A DNA stretch of 40,435 bases from Fidelibacterota bacterium. GTDB taxonomy: Bacteria; Fidelibacterota; Marinisomatia; SCGC-AAA003-L08; JACNLC01. The notes beneath the pieces were generated by a model that worked only from the letters and a program-made list of their open reading frames with translations, made no database searches and was not told where the DNA came from. Of this stretch, positions 22,475-38,085 are shown piece after piece; the first letter of the stretch is position 1, and each line of letters opens with the position of its first letter. The stretch lies in the NCBI GenBank assembly GCA_014381725.1, contig JACNLC010000041.1, positions 1-40,435 on the forward strand, read 5' to 3'. The translations under genes were made by a program, and so were the position numbers.

Positions 22475-23056
22475 TTAATTAGTATATTTATAATCTAATT
22501 TTCTTATTTCTTTTTTTCTATTTCCAAGAAACCAAGTTTCTTTAACATTTTCGTTTTCAAAATCATAATCAATATTAATCAAACCAATAATTTTATTAGA
22601 TTGTGAATAAAATACATATTTTTCTGGCAACAATTGAATATTATAAACAACTTCTGTCAGTCTGTTTGATTCTATTGGCAAAAATCCAAACCCAAATACA
22701 AATTGAAAATAATCATAAGATTTATAAATATCTTGTAACCATAATTCAGACTTTAATCTTCCTTTTTCAAAATATGAAATAAGAGATAAATCACCGCTCT
22801 TATCATATTCATAATTGCGTTTTCGCAATAGGGAATCTGATTCAGAATACCACAATATCTCAACTACATTCTTGTTGGAATCACGAATTGTTTTTAGATA
22901 TTGTCCATCGTCAATTTCTTCATTTGGAAGTCGAATATCTTCTATAAAAGAGAGTTCATCTCTAAAATACGAAACTGTAACCTTCTCTTCACTTTTGTCA
23001 TTAGAAAAAGCAACATTAGCAAATAGTAAGAAAATTGCAATTTTAAATATTTTCAT
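22475..23056 (-). CDS. Uncharacterised secreted protein
   Basis: This 193-residue protein has a signal peptide (MKIFKIAIFLLFANVAFS). The mature part holds repeated stretches of the type RKRNYEYDKSGDLSLISYFEKG and IINIDYDFENENVKETWFLGNRKKEI-like segments, reminiscent of YD/MORN-like antiparallel beta repeats seen in toxin-related and surface proteins; the family is not recognised. I start it at the ATG at 23056, which overlaps the end of the EEP-LTD-dockerin gene by 14 bases. No clear Shine-Dalgarno is present, so translational coupling is likely. Confidence 0.65.
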   Translation of the reverse strand: MKIFKIAIFLLFANVAFSNDKSEEKVTVSYFRDELSFIEDIRLPNEEIDDGQYLKTIRDSNKNVVEILWYSESDSLLRKRNYEYDKSGDLSLISYFEKGRLKSELWLQDIYKSYDYFQFVFGFGFLPIESNRLTEVVYNIQLLPEKYVFYSQSNKIIGLINIDYDFENENVKETWFLGNRKKEIRKLDYKYTN

Positions 23057-24641
23057 CAATAGTAATTATAATATCAATGATATTTATCATTCCATCAATA
23101 TTTTGGTCAACACTACAAATTTGTGATTCTGTAAATGAAACTTCTTCTAAAATATAATCTATCGTCAAAACAATATCTAAAATATCAGTTATTCCATCAA
23201 AATTAACATCTCCATTGGATGCACAAATGTTCGATTCTCCAGGAGAACCAAAATCACCGCCAGACATTGGAGAAGATGATACTGACCAGTTCCCTCCAAT
23301 ATTATTGTCAGTATTTTGGTTATCTAACGACATAGATGCTCCTTCTGGATCTGGAAAAGTTGCTCCGTTATCATACCAAACTTCGTCAATTATCGTTCCA
23401 TTCGGATGAGCAATTATTACTTCGTCAAAAGTATTTCCAAGAAATATTCCAGAATACATATAATCCAATTCCACTCCGCCATTCAATCCTATATTATCAT
23501 TTACACCCAAAACAACAAAATCACCGGGATTTAAATACAATCCACCCGGATTTGATATTGTATGAGAATCTGAACCATCATCTTTTAGAACAAGTCCATT
23601 CAAATCGATTACTTCATCGCCAGTATTTGTCAATTCTAGCCATTCCCCATAAGAGTCTGAAACTACTGCTGGGTTATTCATAATTTCGTTTATCACCAAC
23701 CCAGATGGGATTTCAATTTCTGCAATTGGAATTTTCCACATTACCGGTCTGTGGTCGGAGATTTGATTTTGGTAACTGGAGGAACCTACATAATCATCTA
23801 TTCTTAGAGTTTGTACAAAGCCGTTTTCATTTTCATCAAACAAATTTGACGAAATTAAAATATGATCAATAAATCCAGCATAGCTGCCCCACGGATATGA
23901 ATTTTGATAACTGTTATAAGCAATTGACATCGTAACAAATTCAGCATTTGGATCTGACACCAACGGCCATAGTGAATTGTTAGATTCTGGGTCTGTAATT
24001 TCATCATTAAAATCACCGATTACTACAATGTTATCACTTGGATGCGATTGGATATAATCCGATAGAATTTCTGATGCCCCAAATCGTTGATCAAAACCTT
24101 CATCGTATGCCTTGAAATGAACATTTATTACAGTTAAATTGATTGTTGATTCGCCACATCCCCACAAAATTTCTACCTTTAATGGATACCTTCCAGCAAA
24201 CTCCCAACCGTCAGAGGGAAACAGTGTAGAATAGTTCAGAATCTCAACACAATCTCGACGAGTTATGATGCCCAAATCTAATCCCCAATCGTTATTATAA
24301 TTAGTGTGTATGAATTCGTATGCAGGGATTTGCACCGATAGGGACTCAAACGCAGACATATCTGTAATTTCTTGGATACCTATTATATCTGGTAAGAGGT
24401 CAGATATAATTTCATTTACATAGTTTACTGTATTCCCCGCTTGTGGAAATTCTTGAATATTCCAAGTTACAATTTCTAATCCCGTCCAATTATTGACAGT
24501 AGCGATATTCCACAAATTTTGTGGAGGATTAACTACAGTTGTATCTGCAGGTGGGCAGGATTGAGAATACCCAATAGAAGATAGTGACAAAATAGTCCAA
24601 AAAATAATTAACATCAAAAACTTAACTTTTGATTTTAACAA
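23043..24641 (-). CDS. Secreted EEP nuclease/phosphatase with LTD and dockerin domains
   Basis: This 532-residue secreted protein has a signal peptide ending near SIGYSQ. Residues about 54-305 are an endonuclease/exonuclease/phosphatase domain with the expected catalytic set: VTWN (N61), GIQE (E91), the HF of INVHFKA, GDFND (D210, N212), IDHILI and SDHRPV (D296, H297). Residues about 312-455 form a lamin-tail (LTD) domain beginning GLVINEIMNNPAV. Residues about 475-532 contain two D.N.DG...I.DI calcium-loop repeats (GDVNFDGITDILDI and DQNIDGMINIIDI), a type I dockerin. Extracellular DNA/RNA or phosphoester cleavage is likely. The dockerin implies docking to a cohesin-bearing partner. Confidence 0.87.
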   Translation of the reverse strand: MLKSKVKFLMLIIFWTILSLSSIGYSQSCPPADTTVVNPPQNLWNIATVNNWTGLEIVTWNIQEFPQAGNTVNYVNEIISDLLPDIIGIQEITDMSAFESLSVQIPAYEFIHTNYNNDWGLDLGIITRRDCVEILNYSTLFPSDGWEFAGRYPLKVEILWGCGESTINLTVINVHFKAYDEGFDQRFGASEILSDYIQSHPSDNIVVIGDFNDEITDPESNNSLWPLVSDPNAEFVTMSIAYNSYQNSYPWGSYAGFIDHILISSNLFDENENGFVQTLRIDDYVGSSSYQNQISDHRPVMWKIPIAEIEIPSGLVINEIMNNPAVVSDSYGEWLELTNTGDEVIDLNGLVLKDDGSDSHTISNPGGLYLNPGDFVVLGVNDNIGLNGGVELDYMYSGIFLGNTFDEVIIAHPNGTIIDEVWYDNGATFPDPEGASMSLDNQNTDNNIGGNWSVSSSPMSGGDFGSPGESNICASNGDVNFDGITDILDIVLTIDYILEEVSFTESQICSVDQNIDGMINIIDIIITIDENI

Positions 24642-24721: not shown

Positions 24722-26656
24722 TTATTTTAAAGGGAAACTCAGCAATACAGGCAGATGGTCAGAAATATATTGTTCATAGACATCAAATCCACCCATATAT
24801 TCATCCATTCGTAATGTTCTAACATCTATATCAGTAGAATGAGGAATAAGTTCAGTTGTTACCAAAATATGATCCAAGAAACTTACATACGGTTCCTTTG
24901 GATAAGATGCTTGTTCGATATCAAAAACAATATCACGATTTACAAAATAAAATCTGTCATCTTCAAAAAATGGATGGAAACAATGAGCGTTATCTTTGTC
25001 TTTCAAATCATCATTCCAATCACCAAGTACGATAAAATTCTTTTCTCCATTATCATATTTGTCCACTAAGTAATTATATAACATTTTTGTAGCTTTTTGA
25101 CGACGCTTCAATCCAGAATCGCAACATTTCATATGTAAATCAATGATGCTGAGAGGGATAATTTCTTCCCCACATAGATATAACAAATCCGCTTGTAAAG
25201 GAGGACGGCCTGCAAAATTATAATCATTCTCTGCAAATGGTTCAACTTGTCCAATAAGTTTGAACATACCGCTTCTAAAAATAATAGCTTGATCCATAAA
25301 AGACGATTGTTGTGAAATTACAAAATCATATTGTGGAAGCTGATCCATTAATTTACTAAACCAGCCGGTTCTACGAATTTCCTGAAATCCAATGATGTCA
25401 GGATTTAGATCTGAAACTGCTTCTGATAGTGCTAGAATAGTCGAATCATCAGCAGTTGGGAAAAACTCGCAATTCCATGTAACAATTTCAATTCTATCTT
25501 CTAAATTTATTTCTGGTATTTGCCAGTCATCTCTACTAATTCTATTAGAATCATCATTGCAATTATTCATTGGTTTCAATTTAGTATCAACTGCCACCTT
25601 TGGATTGTAGATATTTTCAATTGCTTTATTTTCTTGATTCTTAATCCAATCGTGAATTTCGTAATCAGGAGTAAAGTCGTCTGCTAAAAGTGTCTGAGAT
25701 ACCCGACCTTTTACAACTGTTTCATATCCTACGAAAACATGAGATTTTGGATCGATTTTTAGTTTAATATGACCAAATTCTGTTCCATTTCCATAATTTT
25801 GGAAAATATAAACATGACTTTTGGAATCATACCACGGCAACGGATATCCTTTACTCTCTCCCCCTGAAATGATTACATCTACTCCATCGGCAAAATATCC
25901 CATTTCAAGTGAGTTTAGAGGATGTTCTTCTGGGTTCCAATCTTCGGTAAGTTTTTCTCGAAATTCTTTATACACTCTTTCTCTGTTCCATGGAATTCCT
26001 GTACTTGCCAAAACGATTACAACTTCTGCACCATCATCTTTTATTTCAGGTATCCATTTATTAAGTGTTTCAATTTCGTGATTTACTCGAATACCAATTT
26101 TATTTTCAGATAATACATTTTCTTCAATAGCTGAACCTACAATTCCGAGAATTCCAATTTTTATTCCGTTAATTTCTCTAATAATGTACGGTTTGAAATT
26201 TTCAGAAGTAATAGCACAATTTTGGCATTCTATATTACTCGCCAAAAATGGAAATTGTGATTGCTCTGCAAGTTCATTGAGATTTCTTGCACCCAATATA
26301 AAATCGTATCTCCCTGGGACTAGAGCATCGTAACCCATTTTATTCATCCATTCAATCATAAATTGACCACCGTCCACAATTCCCAACGGATTCCCTTGAA
26401 AGAAATTCCCACCATCGAGAATCAGTAATCCCTCTCCAGATTGCTTGCATTCTTCACGCATATCCTCAGCATATTTATAGAGTGCAGAACCACCTAAAAT
26501 AGTAGGTGGATATTCGGGATTCATAAAAGTTGCTTCTTGTTCCGCAATTACTCCGTGTAAATCGTTGGTGAAAATCAAGTTGATGATTTCCGGTTTATTA
26601 GAAGCAAATGAAAACGATAAACAACAAATAGCTATCAGACGAATAATATTCTTCAT
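24722..26656 (-). CDS. Fusion of degenerate 5'-nucleotidase-like metallophosphatase and EEP domain
   Basis: This is a 644-residue protein with a signal peptide (KNIIRLIAICCLSFSFAS). Residues 25-345 align with the UshA/5'-nucleotidase metallophosphatase domain, but only the first motif NDLHG keeps its Asp and His. GD becomes GN in DGGNFFQG, GNHE becomes GRYD at about 115-118, the later T-H-x-G is ASTG (about 217-220), and GGHSH is GGESK (about 265-269). Residues 388-644 are an EEP domain with intact motifs VTWNCEFF, GFQEI, DLHMK, GDWNDD, LDHILV and SDHLPV. It is thus probably an active EEP enzyme carrying an inactive binding domain. It neighbours a second EEP gene on the same strand. Confidence 0.88.
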   Translation of the reverse strand: MKNIIRLIAICCLSFSFASNKPEIINLIFTNDLHGVIAEQEATFMNPEYPPTILGGSALYKYAEDMREECKQSGEGLLILDGGNFFQGNPLGIVDGGQFMIEWMNKMGYDALVPGRYDFILGARNLNELAEQSQFPFLASNIECQNCAITSENFKPYIIREINGIKIGILGIVGSAIEENVLSENKIGIRVNHEIETLNKWIPEIKDDGAEVVIVLASTGIPWNRERVYKEFREKLTEDWNPEEHPLNSLEMGYFADGVDVIISGGESKGYPLPWYDSKSHVYIFQNYGNGTEFGHIKLKIDPKSHVFVGYETVVKGRVSQTLLADDFTPDYEIHDWIKNQENKAIENIYNPKVAVDTKLKPMNNCNDDSNRISRDDWQIPEINLEDRIEIVTWNCEFFPTADDSTILALSEAVSDLNPDIIGFQEIRRTGWFSKLMDQLPQYDFVISQQSSFMDQAIIFRSGMFKLIGQVEPFAENDYNFAGRPPLQADLLYLCGEEIIPLSIIDLHMKCCDSGLKRRQKATKMLYNYLVDKYDNGEKNFIVLGDWNDDLKDKDNAHCFHPFFEDDRFYFVNRDIVFDIEQASYPKEPYVSFLDHILVTTELIPHSTDIDVRTLRMDEYMGGFDVYEQYISDHLPVLLSFPLK

Positions 26657-26662
26657 TTGATA

Positions 26663-28759
26663 TTACATTTCCTTTTCTGCTTTAACTGGCTTGCCTTTGA
26701 CAAACATCGCAGATTGCACTAATTCATCTGTTAGATACACGACTCCCTCATCGTTATGTGGTTTACCAAATACTGAGTGACAAGATTTAAGTCCGCCAAA
26801 CCATGCTCGTTTATCTGCAATATAGACCAAGTCGCCAACTTCTGCTGACATTTCATCCATTTGAGTCTGCGTAAATCTTGCAACTTGTTGTTGACCTTCT
26901 GCAATCTTCCAATTAACAACCACTTTCTCGCCCTCTATGTCGTTTGGTTTACTACCTTTGAATAATTTTCGTGCAATATCTATTGAGTTAGCAGTCAATC
27001 CGACAGTATGTTTGTTTTCATCATATTTCACAAAATAAGTTACCGATAAAGGAACAAGAACTATTACTCCAACTGTAGACATAACCTGGATTGAAATTTC
27101 CGATACATTGAAAAGAACAAAAGTAAAAAGTATAATTGCAACAGCTGTAATTCCATTCATAATTATTTTTTCATTTGTTAAAGAACGAATTTTCGCTACC
27201 AAACTAACCTGCAATTTCGTAGTTAAAGCAACAAGTACGGCTACTCCAGAACAAGCTAGCGTGTTATATAATGCCCTGATATAAGAATATGGATGAGCTT
27301 GATTCATTTCAATTCCGTGGTCAAATGGAGCAATCAATAATCCAGGATATCTTGCACCAAGAATCATTAATACTACACCACCAACAAATGTAGTAATAAC
27401 TGCAGCTGGCGTAAATCTTTTCCAAAATACTCCAAGGAATATTCCAACTACTAAAGGAGGAGTCAATGTTGAATGAAAATATCCGTGAGCTTCATAAACA
27501 GTAGGAAAATTTTTGAAAGCAAGTACAGCCAAAACTCCCAAAATCGTAACTACGATTGAAGCATAGCGAGCAGCACCAAGTTCTTTTTTATCCTTTTCAA
27601 TATCCGATTTTACTGTTTTCTTTAGAAACCGTTGAATAGGCCTATAAACATCGTTTATGTAGATAGCAGCCGTCGCATTAATTAGTGTATCAACCGTACT
27701 CATCAGAGCTGCTGTTAATGCCGCCATTATGAACCCAAACATACCTGGGCTAGCAATTATATTTGCTACTACTACAAATATCTGGTCGGGGGAAACAGAT
27801 GGACTAACAATATCAGGACTTGCTACAGAGATTGCTTTCCCTATCCAACCTGCATTACCCACAACAATTGCTGATATCGGAAGCACAAACAAAATATTTA
27901 CAGCTGCTGCCTTACGACCTTCATTTACATTTTTACACGCCATAAAACGCATAACTAGACCTTGATTCATAAATAAAAATCCAATTGAACCAGCAATTGC
28001 ATCCTGCCAAAATATCCCAACGAAGTTAAAATTAGATGGCTGATTAAAATCTGCAAGTGGCAATTTCCACTCTGTCGGTAGTAAATCCCAAAAGATATCG
28101 AATCCACCCAAATATGTAATACCAAACAGGAATAATAACAGCCCTGCAAAAAGTAGAATGAAACCCTGTATCAAGTCGGTGAAAATAACTGCTGTTTGAC
28201 CTCCAAATGTAATATAGATTCCAGTAATAATAGCAATAACAATAATTGCACCCATTAGCGTAATTGGCAATGTAGTTCCAAAAATCGTAATTGCTTCAGG
28301 CAACATTGGAATAACTGCTTTACCAAGAGTTAGGAACCCAATTCCTATATATCCTATCATATAAAGAAGCAACAGAATTGTTGCTAGGAAACGAGCGGAT
28401 GGACTAAATCGTTTTTCGAAATACTCAGGAATAGAACGAATTTTTGAATACACAATAATCGGAAGCCATCCAAACATAAAAAATGCTATAAAAAACCAAT
28501 CGTTTAAATAGGTCATTGAAGACGAAATTCCATGTTCAAAACCCTTAGCAGAATATTTTACAAAACTATGGCTTCCTACCCCGGTTGCTACGATTGACAT
28601 AGTAATTAACCACCACGAAAATCTTCGCCCACCAAAGAAAAAATCTGATGTTGTTTTAGTGTATCTGCCAAAATAACTCCCAAAGAGCATTATAACAATA
28701 AAATAGACAACCATAACTACCCAGTCTGTTGTTGTTCCAATATCATGAAATGTCTGCAT
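26663..28759 (-). CDS. Sodium:solute symporter (SSS/SLC5 family)
   Basis: This 698-residue inner-membrane secondary transporter has about 13 or more transmembrane segments. The N-terminal half has FFFGGRRFSWWLITMSIVATG, the family signature after TM1. TM6-8 include TDLIQGFILLFAGLL and the region MAALTAALMSTVDTLINATA (Na-binding helix with the conserved STxDT-like STVDT). A soluble C-terminal tail of about 120 residues follows the last helices. The substrate cannot be deduced; adjacent EEP/5'-nucleotidase-like genes would suit a nucleoside, sugar or similar product. Its ATG shares one base with the stop of the small membrane gene upstream (TAATG), so the two are translationally coupled. Confidence 0.92.
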   Translation of the reverse strand: MQTFHDIGTTTDWVVMVVYFIVIMLFGSYFGRYTKTTSDFFFGGRRFSWWLITMSIVATGVGSHSFVKYSAKGFEHGISSSMTYLNDWFFIAFFMFGWLPIIVYSKIRSIPEYFEKRFSPSARFLATILLLLYMIGYIGIGFLTLGKAVIPMLPEAITIFGTTLPITLMGAIIVIAIITGIYITFGGQTAVIFTDLIQGFILLFAGLLLFLFGITYLGGFDIFWDLLPTEWKLPLADFNQPSNFNFVGIFWQDAIAGSIGFLFMNQGLVMRFMACKNVNEGRKAAAVNILFVLPISAIVVGNAGWIGKAISVASPDIVSPSVSPDQIFVVVANIIASPGMFGFIMAALTAALMSTVDTLINATAAIYINDVYRPIQRFLKKTVKSDIEKDKKELGAARYASIVVTILGVLAVLAFKNFPTVYEAHGYFHSTLTPPLVVGIFLGVFWKRFTPAAVITTFVGGVVLMILGARYPGLLIAPFDHGIEMNQAHPYSYIRALYNTLACSGVAVLVALTTKLQVSLVAKIRSLTNEKIIMNGITAVAIILFTFVLFNVSEISIQVMSTVGVIVLVPLSVTYFVKYDENKHTVGLTANSIDIARKLFKGSKPNDIEGEKVVVNWKIAEGQQQVARFTQTQMDEMSAEVGDLVYIADKRAWFGGLKSCHSVFGKPHNDEGVVYLTDELVQSAMFVKGKPVKAEKEM

Positions 28760-29061
28760 TATGACCTCGCAATCTTTTTAAGAATTAAGTTTACAGCAAT
28801 AAATATAACAACTAGAGCTAGCATAATAATAGGTACTAAATAAACAGAAATACTATCCAGCGCAGCCAATGTCATTAATGCGTGTAACATGATATACCAC
28901 ACAAAACCGAATATTAAAACCCACATCCATTTCTTATGGACATACCGATTTAAATCAAATGAACCAGCTTTAAGCGTAATTATGATACCAAAGACAAATA
29001 AGGCGCCTCCTAATCCATAAAGATATAAAAAAGGTAACCAAGAATGAGAGAATAGATCCAT
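28759..29061 (-). CDS. Small membrane protein coupled to the sodium:solute symporter
   Basis: This is a 100-residue protein with three predicted transmembrane helices (FLYLYGLGGALFVFGIIITL, WMWVLIFGFVWYIMLHALMT, and VYLVPIIMLALVVIFIAVNL) and a short basic C-terminus. I do not recognise a family. It stands just upstream of the symporter with a TAATG one-base overlap, so it is made in a fixed ratio with it. Two-component SSS systems with a small DUF-type subunit are known elsewhere; this protein may be an analogous but different subunit. It starts at ATG 29061 after GGAGG. Confidence 0.8.
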   Translation of the reverse strand: MDLFSHSWLPFLYLYGLGGALFVFGIIITLKAGSFDLNRYVHKKWMWVLIFGFVWYIMLHALMTLAALDSISVYLVPIIMLALVVIFIAVNLILKKIARS

Positions 29062-29084: not shown

Positions 29085-30365
29085 TTAAAACTTATACTTA
29101 ACTGATAACAAAATATTAAAATGACTTTCCATTACTTTTTCAATACCACTAGGGTTACTTGGGTCATTTTCTGGTTGGAATATGTCAAAGTATGAATAAG
29201 ATAGACTTCCATATTCACCACCAATATCATAAGATATTTTACCTATAGATTTACCAAATCCAAATGTAAAAATTGATTCTGTTAAATCTTTTCGATATGG
29301 AGATGTTTTGTGAATTAAACCTGCACGGATTGGAAATTTATTATTTACCATATATTCAAATCCAATTTTGTAGGTGTCTGTATCTATCAGTTCTAAACTG
29401 TCAATAGCTACTGAAGAGTACTTTACTTTCTCATACTCTAATACAAAAGTAGTATTTATTTTTTGAGATGGAGAAAAACTCCAACCAATTCTATATTTTT
29501 CAGGTTTAACAAGTGAATTATTCACATGTACTGTATCAACAGCAAATTGTGGTAATCCAAAAGTATCGTTTTGTAGAATTACCAAAGAATCTTCATACTC
29601 AACAGTTGCTGATTGTTCGTATGCTAATGCTAATCTCGATTCGTTGCCTAATTTTATTTCGCTACTTAATACTGCAAAATAGGTGTTATTCGTTTCGCTG
29701 TTAAATGAAAACTCTTGTTCTGATGCAATAAAATCACTTGTTTCTAAAATTACAGTGTCTCTTATTGCTGTAAATGTAGTTGGTAAAATTACATTCTGTG
29801 AAAAGCCAATTGAAAACAAATTGGTAAACGATGTTGCCATAGAACAAGTTAACAAATTTAAGGTCCCGGATGTTTCAAATTTGTGATAACCAACTAATGG
29901 ATCTTTATAAAATGATGAACCTCTATCTCTAACTTCTTCATTAAATAAATAATCTGATGTTAAATATTGACCTTGAGAAATTGCTAGTGAGATTGGCAAA
30001 ATACTTAAGTTCGAATAACTAACTCCTATACGATTATAATTAAAATAATTTCCATTAGTTACATAGTTTGCATCTACTAAGTAATCCCCAAAAAAGTCTT
30101 GAACTGGAATACTGCGTCGTTCTTTTACGCGCATGATATTGGTAGAAACATCAATATTAAATCCATTTAGTTTTAACAATCCTGCTGGATTTGATAGCCC
30201 AAGTGCTGAAGAATTATCAGACATCATTGCTGTTTTAGCCATTCCATAAGCTCTGCCTGAAATTGGATAAATATCATCACCTAATATTCTATTGAAATAT
30301 GATTGAGAAAATATTACTCCAATAAATAATACTACTGATAAAACTTTTATATTTTTAATATACAT
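29085..30365 (-). CDS. FadL/PorV-like outer-membrane beta-barrel protein
   Basis: This 426-residue protein has a signal peptide (SVVLFIGVIFSQ). Its mature start (SGRAYGMAKTAMMSDNSSALGLSNPAGL) is typical of OMPP1/FadL and PorV relatives, where the A.A...N...L..NPAGL motif plugs the barrel. The rest is alternating amphipathic strands ending VKYKF with a terminal Phe. In this family members take up hydrophobic compounds or act as T9SS shuttle components. It overlaps the downstream end of the HhH-barrel gene by 11 bases and stands directly before the SSS pair on the same strand. Confidence 0.82.
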   Translation of the reverse strand: MYIKNIKVLSVVLFIGVIFSQSYFNRILGDDIYPISGRAYGMAKTAMMSDNSSALGLSNPAGLLKLNGFNIDVSTNIMRVKERRSIPVQDFFGDYLVDANYVTNGNYFNYNRIGVSYSNLSILPISLAISQGQYLTSDYLFNEEVRDRGSSFYKDPLVGYHKFETSGTLNLLTCSMATSFTNLFSIGFSQNVILPTTFTAIRDTVILETSDFIASEQEFSFNSETNNTYFAVLSSEIKLGNESRLALAYEQSATVEYEDSLVILQNDTFGLPQFAVDTVHVNNSLVKPEKYRIGWSFSPSQKINTTFVLEYEKVKYSSVAIDSLELIDTDTYKIGFEYMVNNKFPIRAGLIHKTSPYRKDLTESIFTFGFGKSIGKISYDIGGEYGSLSYSYFDIFQPENDPSNPSGIEKVMESHFNILLSVKYKF

Positions 30366-32949
30366 AATCTACCTGCAATCTGAAATCTGTTTCGTTAGAA
30401 AAAACTGTTGGATTCGTTATTACCGTACTACTTCCACCATATTCACCATTGTATGGATAAGTCGTTGTAATCTTGGTTTGTGGGAAATGAGATGTATGGC
30501 TCACTTTTAATCTCATTGATAAATTAGTGCTAACTCTCGCCATAAAACTTACCCAATTATGTAAAGCGTGAGTTTCTGTTTCAAATATTCTGAAGTCGGT
30601 ATCCTCAAAATTCCAAAAGAAACCTTCTATGTACATTATCGAACCCATTATTTTGAAATTTTTGTCAAAATTGTGGGTTATTGAAAATCCATAAGTTTCT
30701 TCTGGGGTCCCGATATTACCAACCATCATATCATATGAACTTTCTGTTTCAGCATTATTTGTTAAGCGAGGTCTTGGTGCAAATGTAGTGAAATTATTAG
30801 AATATAACAATTTTATTTGATTGAAATTTGATAATCTCAACCTCATAGTTACACGAGTTTCTCGAGAATCAAATGGACTTGGGTGAGAAATATTCATAGA
30901 ACCTCTTCCCTGAAATTTCTGCCTAACTTTGATACGATAATTAAATACTGGGCAAAACTCAATAGTGGTTACCACTCTAAAATATCTTGTATTATCAGCT
31001 ACCCTTGTCCAAGTATCCCAATTTATTTTACCAGCCATAGATCTATGAAATTGATATCGACTTTCTAGATACAATCCTCTCTCTGCTTGAGGTTGCGGAT
31101 TAGCTGTATATAGATTCCCAAAAATCGGGTCATCTAACCAATATGTGTCTTCAAAAATACTGGTTTTGTAGCGTTGATAGTTTGAAAAAGATCGCTGATA
31201 AGGATTATCAAATTCCAAACTATAATCTCTATACAAAGCTAACAAATTTAAACTATTAAATTGATAATACGCGTTTAACACCAATGCGTGCGGTTCATTC
31301 CCTAGTTTATAGATATTTTTTTCATTGGTTAGTTCGCCATATTCACCTTGTAAGGCAAGATTTCCTATTACTGTAGAAAAATCAAAACCTATTACTCTCC
31401 TAAACGATTTTGCAGAATTCCAAAGTTGAGACTCTCCAGAATTTTGATACATAGCATTGATTTCCGCATCTGCACTATTACTCAAATAAGCTAAATATCT
31501 ATCATCACCAGAATATCCAGGATCACCGCCAACAATTGTATTTTTAATTTGAGGATCGATGACTCTATCGTAAAGACTCTCATAAAACGACATTCCCAAA
31601 AATGTACCAATAATTGGTGAAACTCGCAAATGTCCTCCCCAAGTAACCTCGTTAACTGATGAAGTTAAAGGATGAGAAAGCACGGAATCATTATAAGCAA
31701 TTCCATTAGTTAATCCCCATGGTAATCGTGGATTCATTACTATGAGAGAAGAAAAACTCGCATTGTCCCAGACGCCATTTTCATTTGCATCAGTAAATAC
31801 TTCACCAACATCCCATTTTCCGTTATCGTTTAAATCTGTAAATGATTCAGCATCATCGTTTATTATTGCATCTCTAGGTGCATAAGAAGCAAACAAAATA
31901 CCTCTAAAAGATTTATTCGACACTTGCGCTGAAATACCATTCATCACATATTGATTTGTTTTTGACAAGTCCTGATGTATCCCTGCAAATCGCTTTGAAA
32001 AACCAAATCCACTTCGTCTAGGGCTAAAATAATCTGAATTTTCGAACACTACACCTTGCCCAAACGAAGAAGAGAAATTTCCCAATACAATTCTATCAAT
32101 ATTAAGTAATCCTGTTTCAATATTTTCAATAGATGCTGATGCTTTTACTTTTGGGAATTTGAATCCTACATTATCGTAGTAAAAATCTGGTTCAGCCATA
32201 TTGCGATGATAAGCTATTCCAAACTTATAATTTTGACCATAACCGGCAGTAATTTTAGTAAATAATTCCGGAATCGAATTATTTTTGACCTGAGATACAC
32301 TACCTTCCGCATCAGGATTTGTTGTTGGGGGGACAGTTCTAATGAGAGAACTTATCCTATAACGCCAAACAGGAGATGTAATTTCATCAGGGAATGATAC
32401 AAAACTTAAAAGGTTTTTATAGCCATAATGACTAATTCCTGGTGAATTCTTTAGTTGAAAAGTTCCTTCAATTTCTCCTCTATCTTTCTGAAGAAGTACT
32501 GCTGTAGCGTCAATAGGAGTAATATTTGGGAGATTCATCAAATCATCGTAACTCATTTTATTGACATCTTTTGGTTCAAATACTTGGTCAAGCCAAACTT
32601 CTGACATTCCTTCTTGAGAACCATCAGATGACAACCATTGTTCAATCTTATAACTATTCTTTTTCATCTTTTCATCAAAAGAAGAAACAGAATTATTGTC
32701 AATATGAAAGTATGGCTTAAGAATATGGAGATCTTCAGGAGATATTCCTGGAATTAACAATAAATCGTAAATAGTCTCAAAATATCCACCACCTTCAACA
32801 AAATCTACAATTAGTATTTTTTTTGTTTCACTAATTGGGATATCAGAAATTTGTGAATATGTAACAGAATTCAAATTAACAGTTTGTATTTCTGCAAATA
32901 CTTGACTACAGAAAAAGATAGCTAATATAACAATAAAACTATTTTTCAT
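30355..32949 (-). CDS. Helix-hairpin-helix protein with large predicted outer-membrane barrel
   Basis: This is an 864-residue secreted protein with a signal peptide ending SQVFAE. The first 190 residues hold three helix-hairpin-helix-like units (LLLIPGISPEDLHILKPYF near 63-81, DLMNLPNITPIDATAVLLQK near 136-155, LKNSPGISHYGYKNLLSF near 166-183) of the ComEA type that normally bind DNA backbones. The remainder is about 650 residues of amphipathic strands ending DYVY, as in outer-membrane barrels. An extracellular loop at about 371-396 has two Ca-loop-like repeats (DLNDNGKWD and DANENGVWD). Similar HhH-barrel fusions occur in FCB genomes, without assigned function. The gene sits between PorV-like genes. 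Confidence 0.78.
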   Translation of the reverse strand: MKNSFIVILAIFFCSQVFAEIQTVNLNSVTYSQISDIPISETKKILIVDFVEGGGYFETIYDLLLIPGISPEDLHILKPYFHIDNNSVSSFDEKMKKNSYKIEQWLSSDGSQEGMSEVWLDQVFEPKDVNKMSYDDLMNLPNITPIDATAVLLQKDRGEIEGTFQLKNSPGISHYGYKNLLSFVSFPDEITSPVWRYRISSLIRTVPPTTNPDAEGSVSQVKNNSIPELFTKITAGYGQNYKFGIAYHRNMAEPDFYYDNVGFKFPKVKASASIENIETGLLNIDRIVLGNFSSSFGQGVVFENSDYFSPRRSGFGFSKRFAGIHQDLSKTNQYVMNGISAQVSNKSFRGILFASYAPRDAIINDDAESFTDLNDNGKWDVGEVFTDANENGVWDNASFSSLIVMNPRLPWGLTNGIAYNDSVLSHPLTSSVNEVTWGGHLRVSPIIGTFLGMSFYESLYDRVIDPQIKNTIVGGDPGYSGDDRYLAYLSNSADAEINAMYQNSGESQLWNSAKSFRRVIGFDFSTVIGNLALQGEYGELTNEKNIYKLGNEPHALVLNAYYQFNSLNLLALYRDYSLEFDNPYQRSFSNYQRYKTSIFEDTYWLDDPIFGNLYTANPQPQAERGLYLESRYQFHRSMAGKINWDTWTRVADNTRYFRVVTTIEFCPVFNYRIKVRQKFQGRGSMNISHPSPFDSRETRVTMRLRLSNFNQIKLLYSNNFTTFAPRPRLTNNAETESSYDMMVGNIGTPEETYGFSITHNFDKNFKIMGSIMYIEGFFWNFEDTDFRIFETETHALHNWVSFMARVSTNLSMRLKVSHTSHFPQTKITTTYPYNGEYGGSSTVITNPTVFSNETDFRLQVDYVY

Positions 32950-35529: not shown

Positions 35530-38085
35530 TTATTTGATTAGTGTAATTTTCTGTGTTATAGTTTTTTCGTTAGCATTTAATTTAACAAAATAAATACCAC
35601 TTGTATAATTTGATGCATCCCAAACTGTGTTATAATTTCCTGGATTCATATTCCTATTAACAAGAGTTTCAACAAACTGACCTTGTAGGTTGTATATTGC
35701 AATGTTAACATCACTAATATCCATTAATTCATAACTGATAACTGTTGTAGGGTTAAATGGATTCGGGTACACAGAAGTAATTCTGAAATCGCTTACAATA
35801 AAATCATTATCAGTATTCAGATTATTAAAATCATCAATACTTCTAGGATAGATAGCATATTCACCATACGAGTAGTGTAAAATACCAGTAATGGAAGTAT
35901 AAGTATCTCCAACTGCAGCATTGTCCCACTCTCCTTCAAAGAAATAGTCATCAATCTTAGCTTGGCCAGTTCCATCGTTCACATACCAACTATTAAATTC
36001 AGTATTGATATCTTCTACAGTTATATTTTGGATAGTTACTAACATTCCTTCATAAACTTCCGCATCTAATGAGCAAGTAAGTCCAATCTCACCAGTAGAT
36101 AATAACTGTGTATCTATCGAGTTATTTGACGACAAGACTTCATAGGAAGCTATATTTTTTAACTCAGTAACTCCGTAGTATTCATCAACTTCTGCAGTCA
36201 ATGTAACTTCATCTCCAACGCTTGGGTTTACAGTTGTATCGTATACATAAACCCCACTCCATTCGTCTTTATCAGGATCTTGAATAAAGAAATTTGGATA
36301 ATCCCCTGGCTTAACTGCAGTTACAATTCCGCTTACTGTAACATCTTGACCCACAAATGATGAAGGATAACAATCGTCACCACTACCAACATCTTCAGAA
36401 TATTGGATATCACTAATTTGTGTTAAGCCAACTACAGTTATGGTTACTTCATCAGAACTTTCATTCCAATCGTTATCCCAAACTGTTAACTCAAAAACTA
36501 AATCTCCAGATTCTTCAGGTGCTGTAAATGTAGTAATTTCTGATTCATCATCACTTAGAGTTACAGTAGTTCCACTTAGTTGAATCCATTCCCAAAATAC
36601 AATACTACCATCATCAGTACTCGCTGAACCATCTAATGTTACAGTCGAGCTAGGTTCAACGGTTTGGTCAGAACCTGCATTGGCAACAGGTAATGTTGGG
36701 TCTGTATTATCCACAATATCACTTAGATATCCACAAACTAACTGAACAGCTCCATTATAAAATGTTATTACTCCAAAGACACTAAGTTCTTGACCTATCA
36801 TCTCTTCATATTGTAACAAATCACCTGGGGGAACTGCAGAATTCCAAAACATTACATCGACTTCAGTACCATCGACAGTTAATGTCAATTGCAAGAAACC
36901 ATAATCTGAATTCCAAAAATTGGTTAAAATACCTGTGGCATTACCCCAGGTACCATTTAAATTAGTTGTTTCAGTTCCCGTGACTACTAATGCTTCTGGT
37001 AAATCATAATTAGAATCAATCAATGTAATTGTTTGATATATAATTTCTACATCATCATTATAAACTTCAACCGTTCCCATGACTTCAATATAATCTCCTC
37101 TATTGTAAATATCAGCTATTGGAGTTCCATTGTAAATTTGGATTCCCCTTCCTGACTCATCTTGAACATAGAATTTTGTATGATCTGGGTAAAGTAATCC
37201 ATCACCAATAGTTACCACTCCAGTGATACTTACTAACTCACCTTCGTAATTCGCAATATTTTCTTGGATATCATAAATCGGAATATTGTTTAAAATGTAA
37301 TAAGAAATATTTACTACATCAGTGTTGGAGGCACCTTCATCATCAGTTACTGTTAATTCAAATACTAAATGTGTGGTTTCTGAAACTTCAGGAAATGTGA
37401 AAGTAGCAACTTCATCAGTTTGATAAGTTAAATCAACATCAGGTCCAGAAGATTGTTCCCATAGATAAGATTCAATGATACCATCTGAATCAACACTCTC
37501 GCTACCATCTAGTGTTACAACATCGCCAGGCTCGGCAGTTTGGTCAAGTCCAGCATTCGCTGAAGGTGGGAAATTGGCATCTGGATCTAAAACTTGATTG
37601 GTATTAATACCTCCTGGAGTAATTGGTACCTCTTCCCAAGGTGATCCATCCACACCAATTCTGCTAATGGACTGTGCATCTTCACCTTCGGATTGATAAT
37701 CCTCACCACCATTTTCCATAGGATTTCCATCTGAATCAATCATATCTCCCTCATACGATACAGCGTCAACTATTATACCATTTATTAATAACTCAATCCC
37801 ATCTGGCGCCCCATTTTGTATGCCTTCAAAATATTCAACATGAAAACCATATCCATCACTTTGATTTGAAAGTGTCAGATCTCCAATTTGAATTGTTTCA
37901 TATACTGAATTATTATTGCCGTTGATTAATTGAACACTCACATTTGAATAAGCGTTGGCAGGTCCTGCAATTTCAAAAAATTCACCCGAATCGGCACCTG
38001 GTTGATCATAGTCAATTTCATTAATAAATAATTGAGCACTTACAGTACTCATTACAACTACAATTATCATTAACATTTTCTTCAT
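35530..38085 (-). CDS. Large secreted LTD-PKD-OB-fold protein with T9SS tail
   Basis: This is an 851-residue protein with a signal peptide (MKKMLMIIVVVMSTVSAQ). Domains in order: LTD (about 18-160, LFINEIDYDQPGADSGEFFE), a PKD domain (172-262), two OB-fold-like segments (about 270-355 and 370-455, with ELVSITGVVTIGDG and KFYVQDESGRG), a second PKD (465-552), two more OB-like segments (about 575-750, DVTVSGIVTAVKPGDYPNFF), and a T9SS type A sorting tail (770-851, SVYPNPFNPTTVISYEL). LTD plus OB-fold modules are the accessory part of extracellular nucleases such as ExeM, but no EEP domain is present here. Its promoter is visible just upstream. Confidence 0.87.
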   Translation of the reverse strand: MKKMLMIIVVVMSTVSAQLFINEIDYDQPGADSGEFFEIAGPANAYSNVSVQLINGNNNSVYETIQIGDLTLSNQSDGYGFHVEYFEGIQNGAPDGIELLINGIIVDAVSYEGDMIDSDGNPMENGGEDYQSEGEDAQSISRIGVDGSPWEEVPITPGGINTNQVLDPDANFPPSANAGLDQTAEPGDVVTLDGSESVDSDGIIESYLWEQSSGPDVDLTYQTDEVATFTFPEVSETTHLVFELTVTDDEGASNTDVVNISYYILNNIPIYDIQENIANYEGELVSITGVVTIGDGLLYPDHTKFYVQDESGRGIQIYNGTPIADIYNRGDYIEVMGTVEVYNDDVEIIYQTITLIDSNYDLPEALVVTGTETTNLNGTWGNATGILTNFWNSDYGFLQLTLTVDGTEVDVMFWNSAVPPGDLLQYEEMIGQELSVFGVITFYNGAVQLVCGYLSDIVDNTDPTLPVANAGSDQTVEPSSTVTLDGSASTDDGSIVFWEWIQLSGTTVTLSDDESEITTFTAPEESGDLVFELTVWDNDWNESSDEVTITVVGLTQISDIQYSEDVGSGDDCYPSSFVGQDVTVSGIVTAVKPGDYPNFFIQDPDKDEWSGVYVYDTTVNPSVGDEVTLTAEVDEYYGVTELKNIASYEVLSSNNSIDTQLLSTGEIGLTCSLDAEVYEGMLVTIQNITVEDINTEFNSWYVNDGTGQAKIDDYFFEGEWDNAAVGDTYTSITGILHYSYGEYAIYPRSIDDFNNLNTDNDFIVSDFRITSVYPNPFNPTTVISYELMDISDVNIAIYNLQGQFVETLVNRNMNPGNYNTVWDASNYTSGIYFVKLNANEKTITQKITLIK

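Follow-up and report, generated by a model that had tools for sequence, protein, structure and literature searches.

The 5'-nucleotidases UshA, CD73, and NadN consist of a Metallophos domain with dimetal and catalytic residues and a C-terminal substrate-binding domain (5_nucleotid_C). Pseudoenzymes are mostly known from eukaryotic signalling. Extracellular nucleases of the ExeM/NucH/Xds type join an LTD or OB domain to an endonuclease/exonuclease/phosphatase (EEP) domain, and the YhcR type of Bacillus subtilis carries an SNase-like nuclease fused to an intact 5'-nucleotidase domain. An OB fold of YhcR is also mentioned (PMC4118848). In DNA foraging, nucleotides are as a rule dephosphorylated before they are imported (PMC8289736), and a helix-hairpin-helix (HHH) protein, RA0C_RS02645, is required for natural transformation in Riemerella (PMC8459023). 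At the cell surface, FadL-family barrels hold surface proteins, such as BamG with BamH in Bacteroidota and PorV in T9SS (PMC12611786, PMC12578637).

Here we describe a gene in a window (the whole stretch of DNA analysed, 40,435 nucleotides from a Fidelibacterota contig) whose product joins a nucleotidase-fold half and an EEP domain in one polypeptide. Compared with UshA, CD73, and NadN, the N-terminal half shares the fold and the motif order, and its direct intact relatives share the locus, but the dimetal and catalytic residues are missing and an EEP domain stands in place of the C-terminal substrate-binding domain. The likeness to ExeM/NucH/Xds lies in a secreted EEP domain with intact motifs and in lamin-tail and OB-type proteins encoded nearby; however, the fusion has neither an LTD nor an OB domain, and its partner domain has a nucleotidase fold. 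The YhcR type likewise pairs a nuclease with a 5'-nucleotidase-fold domain in a single secreted chain, but there the pair is SNase-like and intact, whereas here it is EEP and dead. A FadL-family barrel beside a secreted partner recalls BamG-BamH and PorV, earlier cases of a surface protein anchored by a barrel, although BamH does not have a metallophosphatase fold and the FadL-like protein encoded here does not reach the cut-offs for BamG and PorV. The neighbouring gene shares a tandem HHH domain with ComEA and RA0C_RS02645, but here the domain is fused to a predicted large β-barrel, and the protein is not known to have a transformation phenotype. In the literature searched, we found no single described protein that works like the fusion, and no description of a nucleotidase pseudoenzyme, of a nucleotidase-fold pseudoenzyme on an EEP domain, or of a Marinimicrobia nucleotidase fusion.

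Overall Architecture of the Fusion Protein

The ORF coincides exactly with positions 24722 to 26656 of the minus strand (Table 1). Its product is predicted to be secreted, with a signal peptide in which no lipobox is read. The AF2 model, for which 20 orthologues served as input, has a pLDDT of 89.9 and a pTM of 0.88, and the latter suggests that the domain arrangement is fixed. Judged by its residues, the protein is a pseudoenzyme-enzyme fusion, with catalysis lost in the N-terminal half and an EEP domain in the C-terminal half.

Table 1. Features of the fusion gene and its neighbours in the window; fusion counts refer to aligned sequences.
Feature	Positions	Strand	Basis
Pseudo-5'-nucleotidase/EEP fusion gene	24722..26656	-	ORF, ATG start, 644 aa; PDB and Pfam matches; AF2 model
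Predicted Sec signal peptide, residues 1-19, MKNIIRLIAICCLSFSFAS	26600..26656	-	Sequence; helix 2-18 in AF2 model
Domain with UshA-type metallophosphatase fold, lacking a working dimetal centre, residues 22-331	25664..26593	-	phmmer, Foldseek, motif tables
Motif I D32-L-H34, retained	26555..26563	-	D in 42/47, H in 45/47 fusion sequences
N84 replacing the metal-bridging Asp	26405..26407	-	Asp in 0/46 fusions vs 33/33 intact relatives
R116-Y117-D118-F119-I120 replacing N-H-D/E-F-D (metal Asn, catalytic His, catalytic Asp)	26297..26311	-	
S218 replacing a metal His	26003..26005	-	His in 19/47 fusions; Ser throughout the clade of the window protein
G266-E267-S268 replacing H-x-H of the GHxH motif	25853..25861	-	H266 in 3/47, H268 in 0/47 fusions
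Long helix 332-350, end of the metallophosphatase half, break point	25607..25663	-	DSSP of AF2 model; alignment limits 344-364
EEP domain, residues 386-644, all catalytic motifs intact	24725..25501	-	PF03372, motifs
EEP, lamin-tail, and dockerin protein gene	23043..24641	-	Pfam, synteny, EEP tree
Sodium:solute symporter gene, between the FadL-like gene and the fusion	26663..28759	-	SSF, E 7e-45
FadL/Toluene_X-like outer-membrane barrel gene	29085..30365	-	Pfam; NCBIfam; synteny
HHH (ComEA-like) domain and predicted β-barrel gene	30355..32949	-	HHH_3, E 3e-8

A Nucleotidase Fold without Its Catalytic Residues

Pfam Metallophos gives no score for the N-terminal half, and 5_nucleotid_C has no Pfam match in the fusion protein. 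Residues 25-355, however, match the 5'-nucleotidase 3ivd (phmmer, E 7e-22) and, more weakly, CD73, UshA, and SoxB; a Foldseek comparison of this half of the model with 3ivd gives an E of 9e-24. The metallophosphatase fold and the motif order of UshA are thus present by both methods. In the alignment with 3ivd, NDLHG is retained, AGD is changed to GGN84, GNHE to GRYD (115-118), IHEG to ASTG (His to S218), and GHAH to GGES (His to G266 and His to S268). The original prediction, that only the Asp and His of NDLHG remain and that the other motifs are replaced by GN, GRYD, ASTG, and GGESK, is borne out at each substitution. Only D32 and H34, two of the nine metal or catalytic positions, hold the original residue, which makes a metal site completed by alternative ligands less likely, and both the dimetal ligand set and the catalytic His-Asp dyad are incomplete. 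The protein is a 5'-nucleotidase homologue, yet it falls outside the active UshA-type members.

We tabulated these positions in 47 aligned fusion sequences (D84 scored in 46) and in 33 intact relatives, 20 from the phylum and 13 from outside it. All nine positions are kept in every intact relative that aligns there. In contrast, the fusions have lost D84 in 46/46, H117 in 47/47, and H268 in 47/47 sequences, a pattern that is not due to chance, while N116 is kept in 4/47 and D120 in 9/47, against 33/33 intact relatives for N116, H117, and D120. The replacements N84 and G266 come close to fixation (98% and 94%), and a conserved GGx(S/N)xGY stands in place of the GHxH motif. The losses are graded by family: f31 (L103-L105) retains the first His of GHxH and the His at position 218, f30 has neither His of GHxH but mostly retains H218, and S218 together with GGxSKGY marks the clade to which the window protein belongs.

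The EEP Half

PF03372 (Exo_endo_phos) matches residues 392-634 with an E of 1.2e-10, above the gathering score. The EEP motifs WN395, QE426, GRPP, H508, GD546xN548, LD595H596, and SD633H634 are all present, in agreement with the claim that this half keeps every catalytic motif. These motifs are conserved in all orthologues, and the motifs that define the EEP superfamily with its DNase I-like fold (N, E, H, D-x-N, and D-H) are found. The C-terminal half belongs to this superfamily and is apparently a working nuclease-type domain. Its PDB profile matches are mixed and weak: the top one is an EEP protein whose function is not stated, and DNase gamma matches less well; the NCBIfam model ExeM_NucH does not match the fusion protein.

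Replacement of the C-Terminal Domain

Outside the fusions, the closest relatives of the N-terminal half are proteins of ~550 residues with Metallophos and 5_nucleotid_C domains and all motifs intact; 5_nucleotid_C was found in the intact relatives L074 and L119. These proteins align to the fusion only up to residues 344-364, just past helix 332-350, and continue into 5_nucleotid_C, which indicates that the EEP domain occupies the former place of the nucleotidase C-terminal domain. In the metallophosphatase tree, the fusions form one clade (99) beside one clade of in-phylum intact nucleotidases (98), and in the EEP tree the fused EEP domains also form one clade (96). Intact and fused forms sit in different families of the phylum. 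Intact in-phylum nucleotidases lie in the same locus, which also occurs outside the phylum; therefore, one clade has replaced the C-terminal domain by EEP in place. Within this clade, the residue pattern indicates that nucleotidase catalysis has been lost stepwise while the fold was kept. As the direct source of the fused EEP domain, we considered the EEP genes downstream of intact nucleotidases (L085 and L087); this is unsupported, since their EEP domains group apart from the fused ones in the EEP tree.

No EEP fusion with intact nucleotidase motifs, which would be the direct ancestor, was found among the 245 in-phylum and ~147 outside genomes. Outside the phylum, matches occur in 17 of the ~147 genomes; wherever listed, the nucleotidase half stands alone, and none of these genomes has a fusion.

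Distribution and Selection

In a whole-genome search, full-length fusions occur in 52 of the 245 in-phylum genomes (54 places), along with a few partial or split copies. Pairwise dN/dS, with saturated pairs left out, ranges from 0.06 to 0.27 in the dead half and from 0.04 to 0.17 in the EEP half, pointing to purifying selection on both halves. The metallophosphatase half thus behaves, by sequence, as a pseudoenzyme: a conserved, monophyletic group has lost the catalytic residues and yet evolves under purifying selection. That an inactivated nucleotidase has been retained, as first proposed, is upheld by the clade-wide losses, by the single clade in both domain trees, and by the low dN/dS. Intact homologues might have meant that this copy had merely decayed; they do exist in the phylum, but they mark the ancestor of a widespread fusion. 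Simple decay or an assembly error in a single copy is hardly credible and can be ruled out, because members of one clade from many families share these fixed losses, their ORFs are uninterrupted, and they evolve under purifying selection.

Two loci encode three-part fusions, with the dead nucleotidase, EEP, and a second EEP in one ORF (L022:463-3486, 1008 aa; L106:3777-6605, 943 aa). In bacterium TMED161 (L027/L032:4986-6870), the halves are encoded separately, by a pair of overlapping frames (363 and 283 aa), either a natural split or a frameshift.

A Conserved Outer-Membrane Locus

Most of the 20 intact loci within the phylum have the gene order HHH/β-barrel, FadL-like, nucleotidase. Fusion loci show the same order, with the fusion in the nucleotidase slot and often another EEP gene following. 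A FadL-like gene lies directly upstream of the fusion in most relatives, though not in every genome, and the window is an exception: a symporter and a 100-aa membrane protein are inserted between the two genes (26663-29061, minus strand), and the symporter was not seen at this place in the other loci checked. The module with an intact 5'-nucleotidase also occurs outside the phylum, where a FadL-like gene lies upstream in 8 of 13 loci and the HHH-barrel gene is also present in 6 of the 13.

The FadL-like protein matches the NCBIfam models BamG (E 5e-11) and PorV (9e-6), both below the cut-offs. A relationship of the fusion protein to BamH, beside a BamG-like barrel, was rejected, as BamH has a carbohydrate-binding-type fold. 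The HHH gene product matches the comE model with an E of 1e-3 in the window and 1e-8 in L113. Its model has an overall pLDDT of 61 (~76-88 in the HHH region) and shows the HHH helices followed by many strands; this low-confidence model gives Foldseek matches to outer-membrane barrels (E ~1e-7). The pairing of the ComEA-like HHH and predicted barrel protein with a FadL/BamG-like barrel and a 5'-nucleotidase was seen in the window, L113, L117-L120, and L123. By gene content, this locus is apparently an undescribed conserved module, possibly for DNA uptake; library searches gave no description of such a locus.

The downstream EEP gene of the window matches ExeM_NucH with an E of 0.026, far below the cut-off. 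A further gene at 35530-38085 (minus strand) encodes PKD repeats, a hint of an OB fold, a match to the ExeM/NucH N-terminal region (E 3e-19), and a T9SS sorting tail, without an EEP domain. Three features suggest a nucleic-acid context for the locus: the HHH domain resembling ComEA, the presence of a second EEP gene, and the segment at 35530 that resembles ExeM/NucH.

Possible Role of the Dead Half

More than 50 related genomes retain the same domain pairing at the same genomic spot, beside outer-membrane channel genes; hence, a function other than catalysis is very probable for the dead half, for instance keeping the nuclease in position. A substrate- or surface-binding role, as originally suggested, would be of this kind, and we consider it most likely that the dead half docks or positions the EEP enzyme. 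Not part of the original suggestion were the conserved neighbourhood, the exchange of the 5'-nucleotidase C-terminal domain for EEP, and the gradation of motif loss from family to family. Three observations argue for docking: the partner genes stayed constant while the enzyme chemistry changed; the non-catalytic residues of the A-x-F-x-N-P-x3-P loop, unlike the metal ligands, persist in both intact and dead forms; and FadL-family barrels elsewhere are known to hold surface proteins. As the sequences show, an ancestral periplasmic or surface 5'-nucleotidase in the conserved outer-membrane locus lost 5_nucleotid_C and acquired, where its linker helix ends, an EEP phosphoesterase domain. The metallophosphatase domain shed its catalytic residues stepwise, D84, H117, and H268 in all fusions and H266 and H218 only in some. 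The dead domain may then have been kept to hold the EEP domain beside the FadL-like barrel and the HHH/β-barrel protein, where EEP would cleave nucleic acid or another phosphodiester, within nucleic-acid scavenging or uptake. The output of the locus would thereby have shifted from clipping phosphate off nucleotides to cutting polymers. For this account as a whole, from domain swap through stepwise loss to docking for scavenging, we judge the chances to be about even. The mixed PDB profile matches of the EEP half, the weak model of the HHH-barrel protein, and the genomes in which no FadL-like gene adjoins the fusion count against it. So does the retention of D32-x-H34, which would be odd if the pocket held no ligand or metal whatever.

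The same retention suits a different explanation, namely that the former active site has been remodelled, so that D32-x-H34 together with R225, D277, H296, GGxSKGY, and QNYG binds one metal or a ligand (a nucleotide or a DNA end), feeding or regulating the EEP site. D32 and H34 are kept in nearly all fusions (Table 1), and R225, D277, H296, and Y271 are invariant in the fusions and variable or different in the intact relatives. However, the bridging Asp, the catalytic His, and H268 are absent from all fusions, L023 has NEING, and L071 lacks H34; we regard a remodelled site as doubtful, although it deserves to be taken seriously. That the N-terminal half is a structural relic, which since the exchange of the C-terminal domain has served only to maintain solubility or secretion of EEP and binds no particular partner, is improbable. 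It would fit the dN/dS of the dead half, which in most pairs is somewhat, but only slightly, above that of the EEP half, and the fact that many of the conserved core residues are fold residues. Nevertheless, this dN/dS is still far below 1, invariant new surface or pocket motifs (GxPxxR and GGx..GY) and the A-x-F-x-N-P-x3-P loop are present, and the half is kept in 52/52 genomes with a full-length copy.

A broader and rather unlikely extension is that the HHH/β-barrel protein, the FadL-like barrel, and the 5'-nucleotidase form an undescribed complex for nucleic-acid uptake and processing, in and beyond this phylum, in which the nucleotidase of one lineage became a dead adaptor carrying an EEP nuclease at the pore. 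Such a complex would show a natural swap of enzymatic output with the docking part preserved. Uptake or processing of nucleic acids may be the function of the conserved locus of ComEA-like HHH barrel, FadL-like barrel, and nucleotidase. Because one genomic slot across a single phylum holds intact ancestors, intermediates with partial degradation, and forms that are fully dead, one can read directly in which order the residues were lost and when this happened relative to the domain replacement.

The window's genome also encodes a second UshA-like protein (L041; G000:C77:23600-25300), which looks motif-poor (ADAGN and VGSKD) and is perhaps an independent pseudoenzyme.
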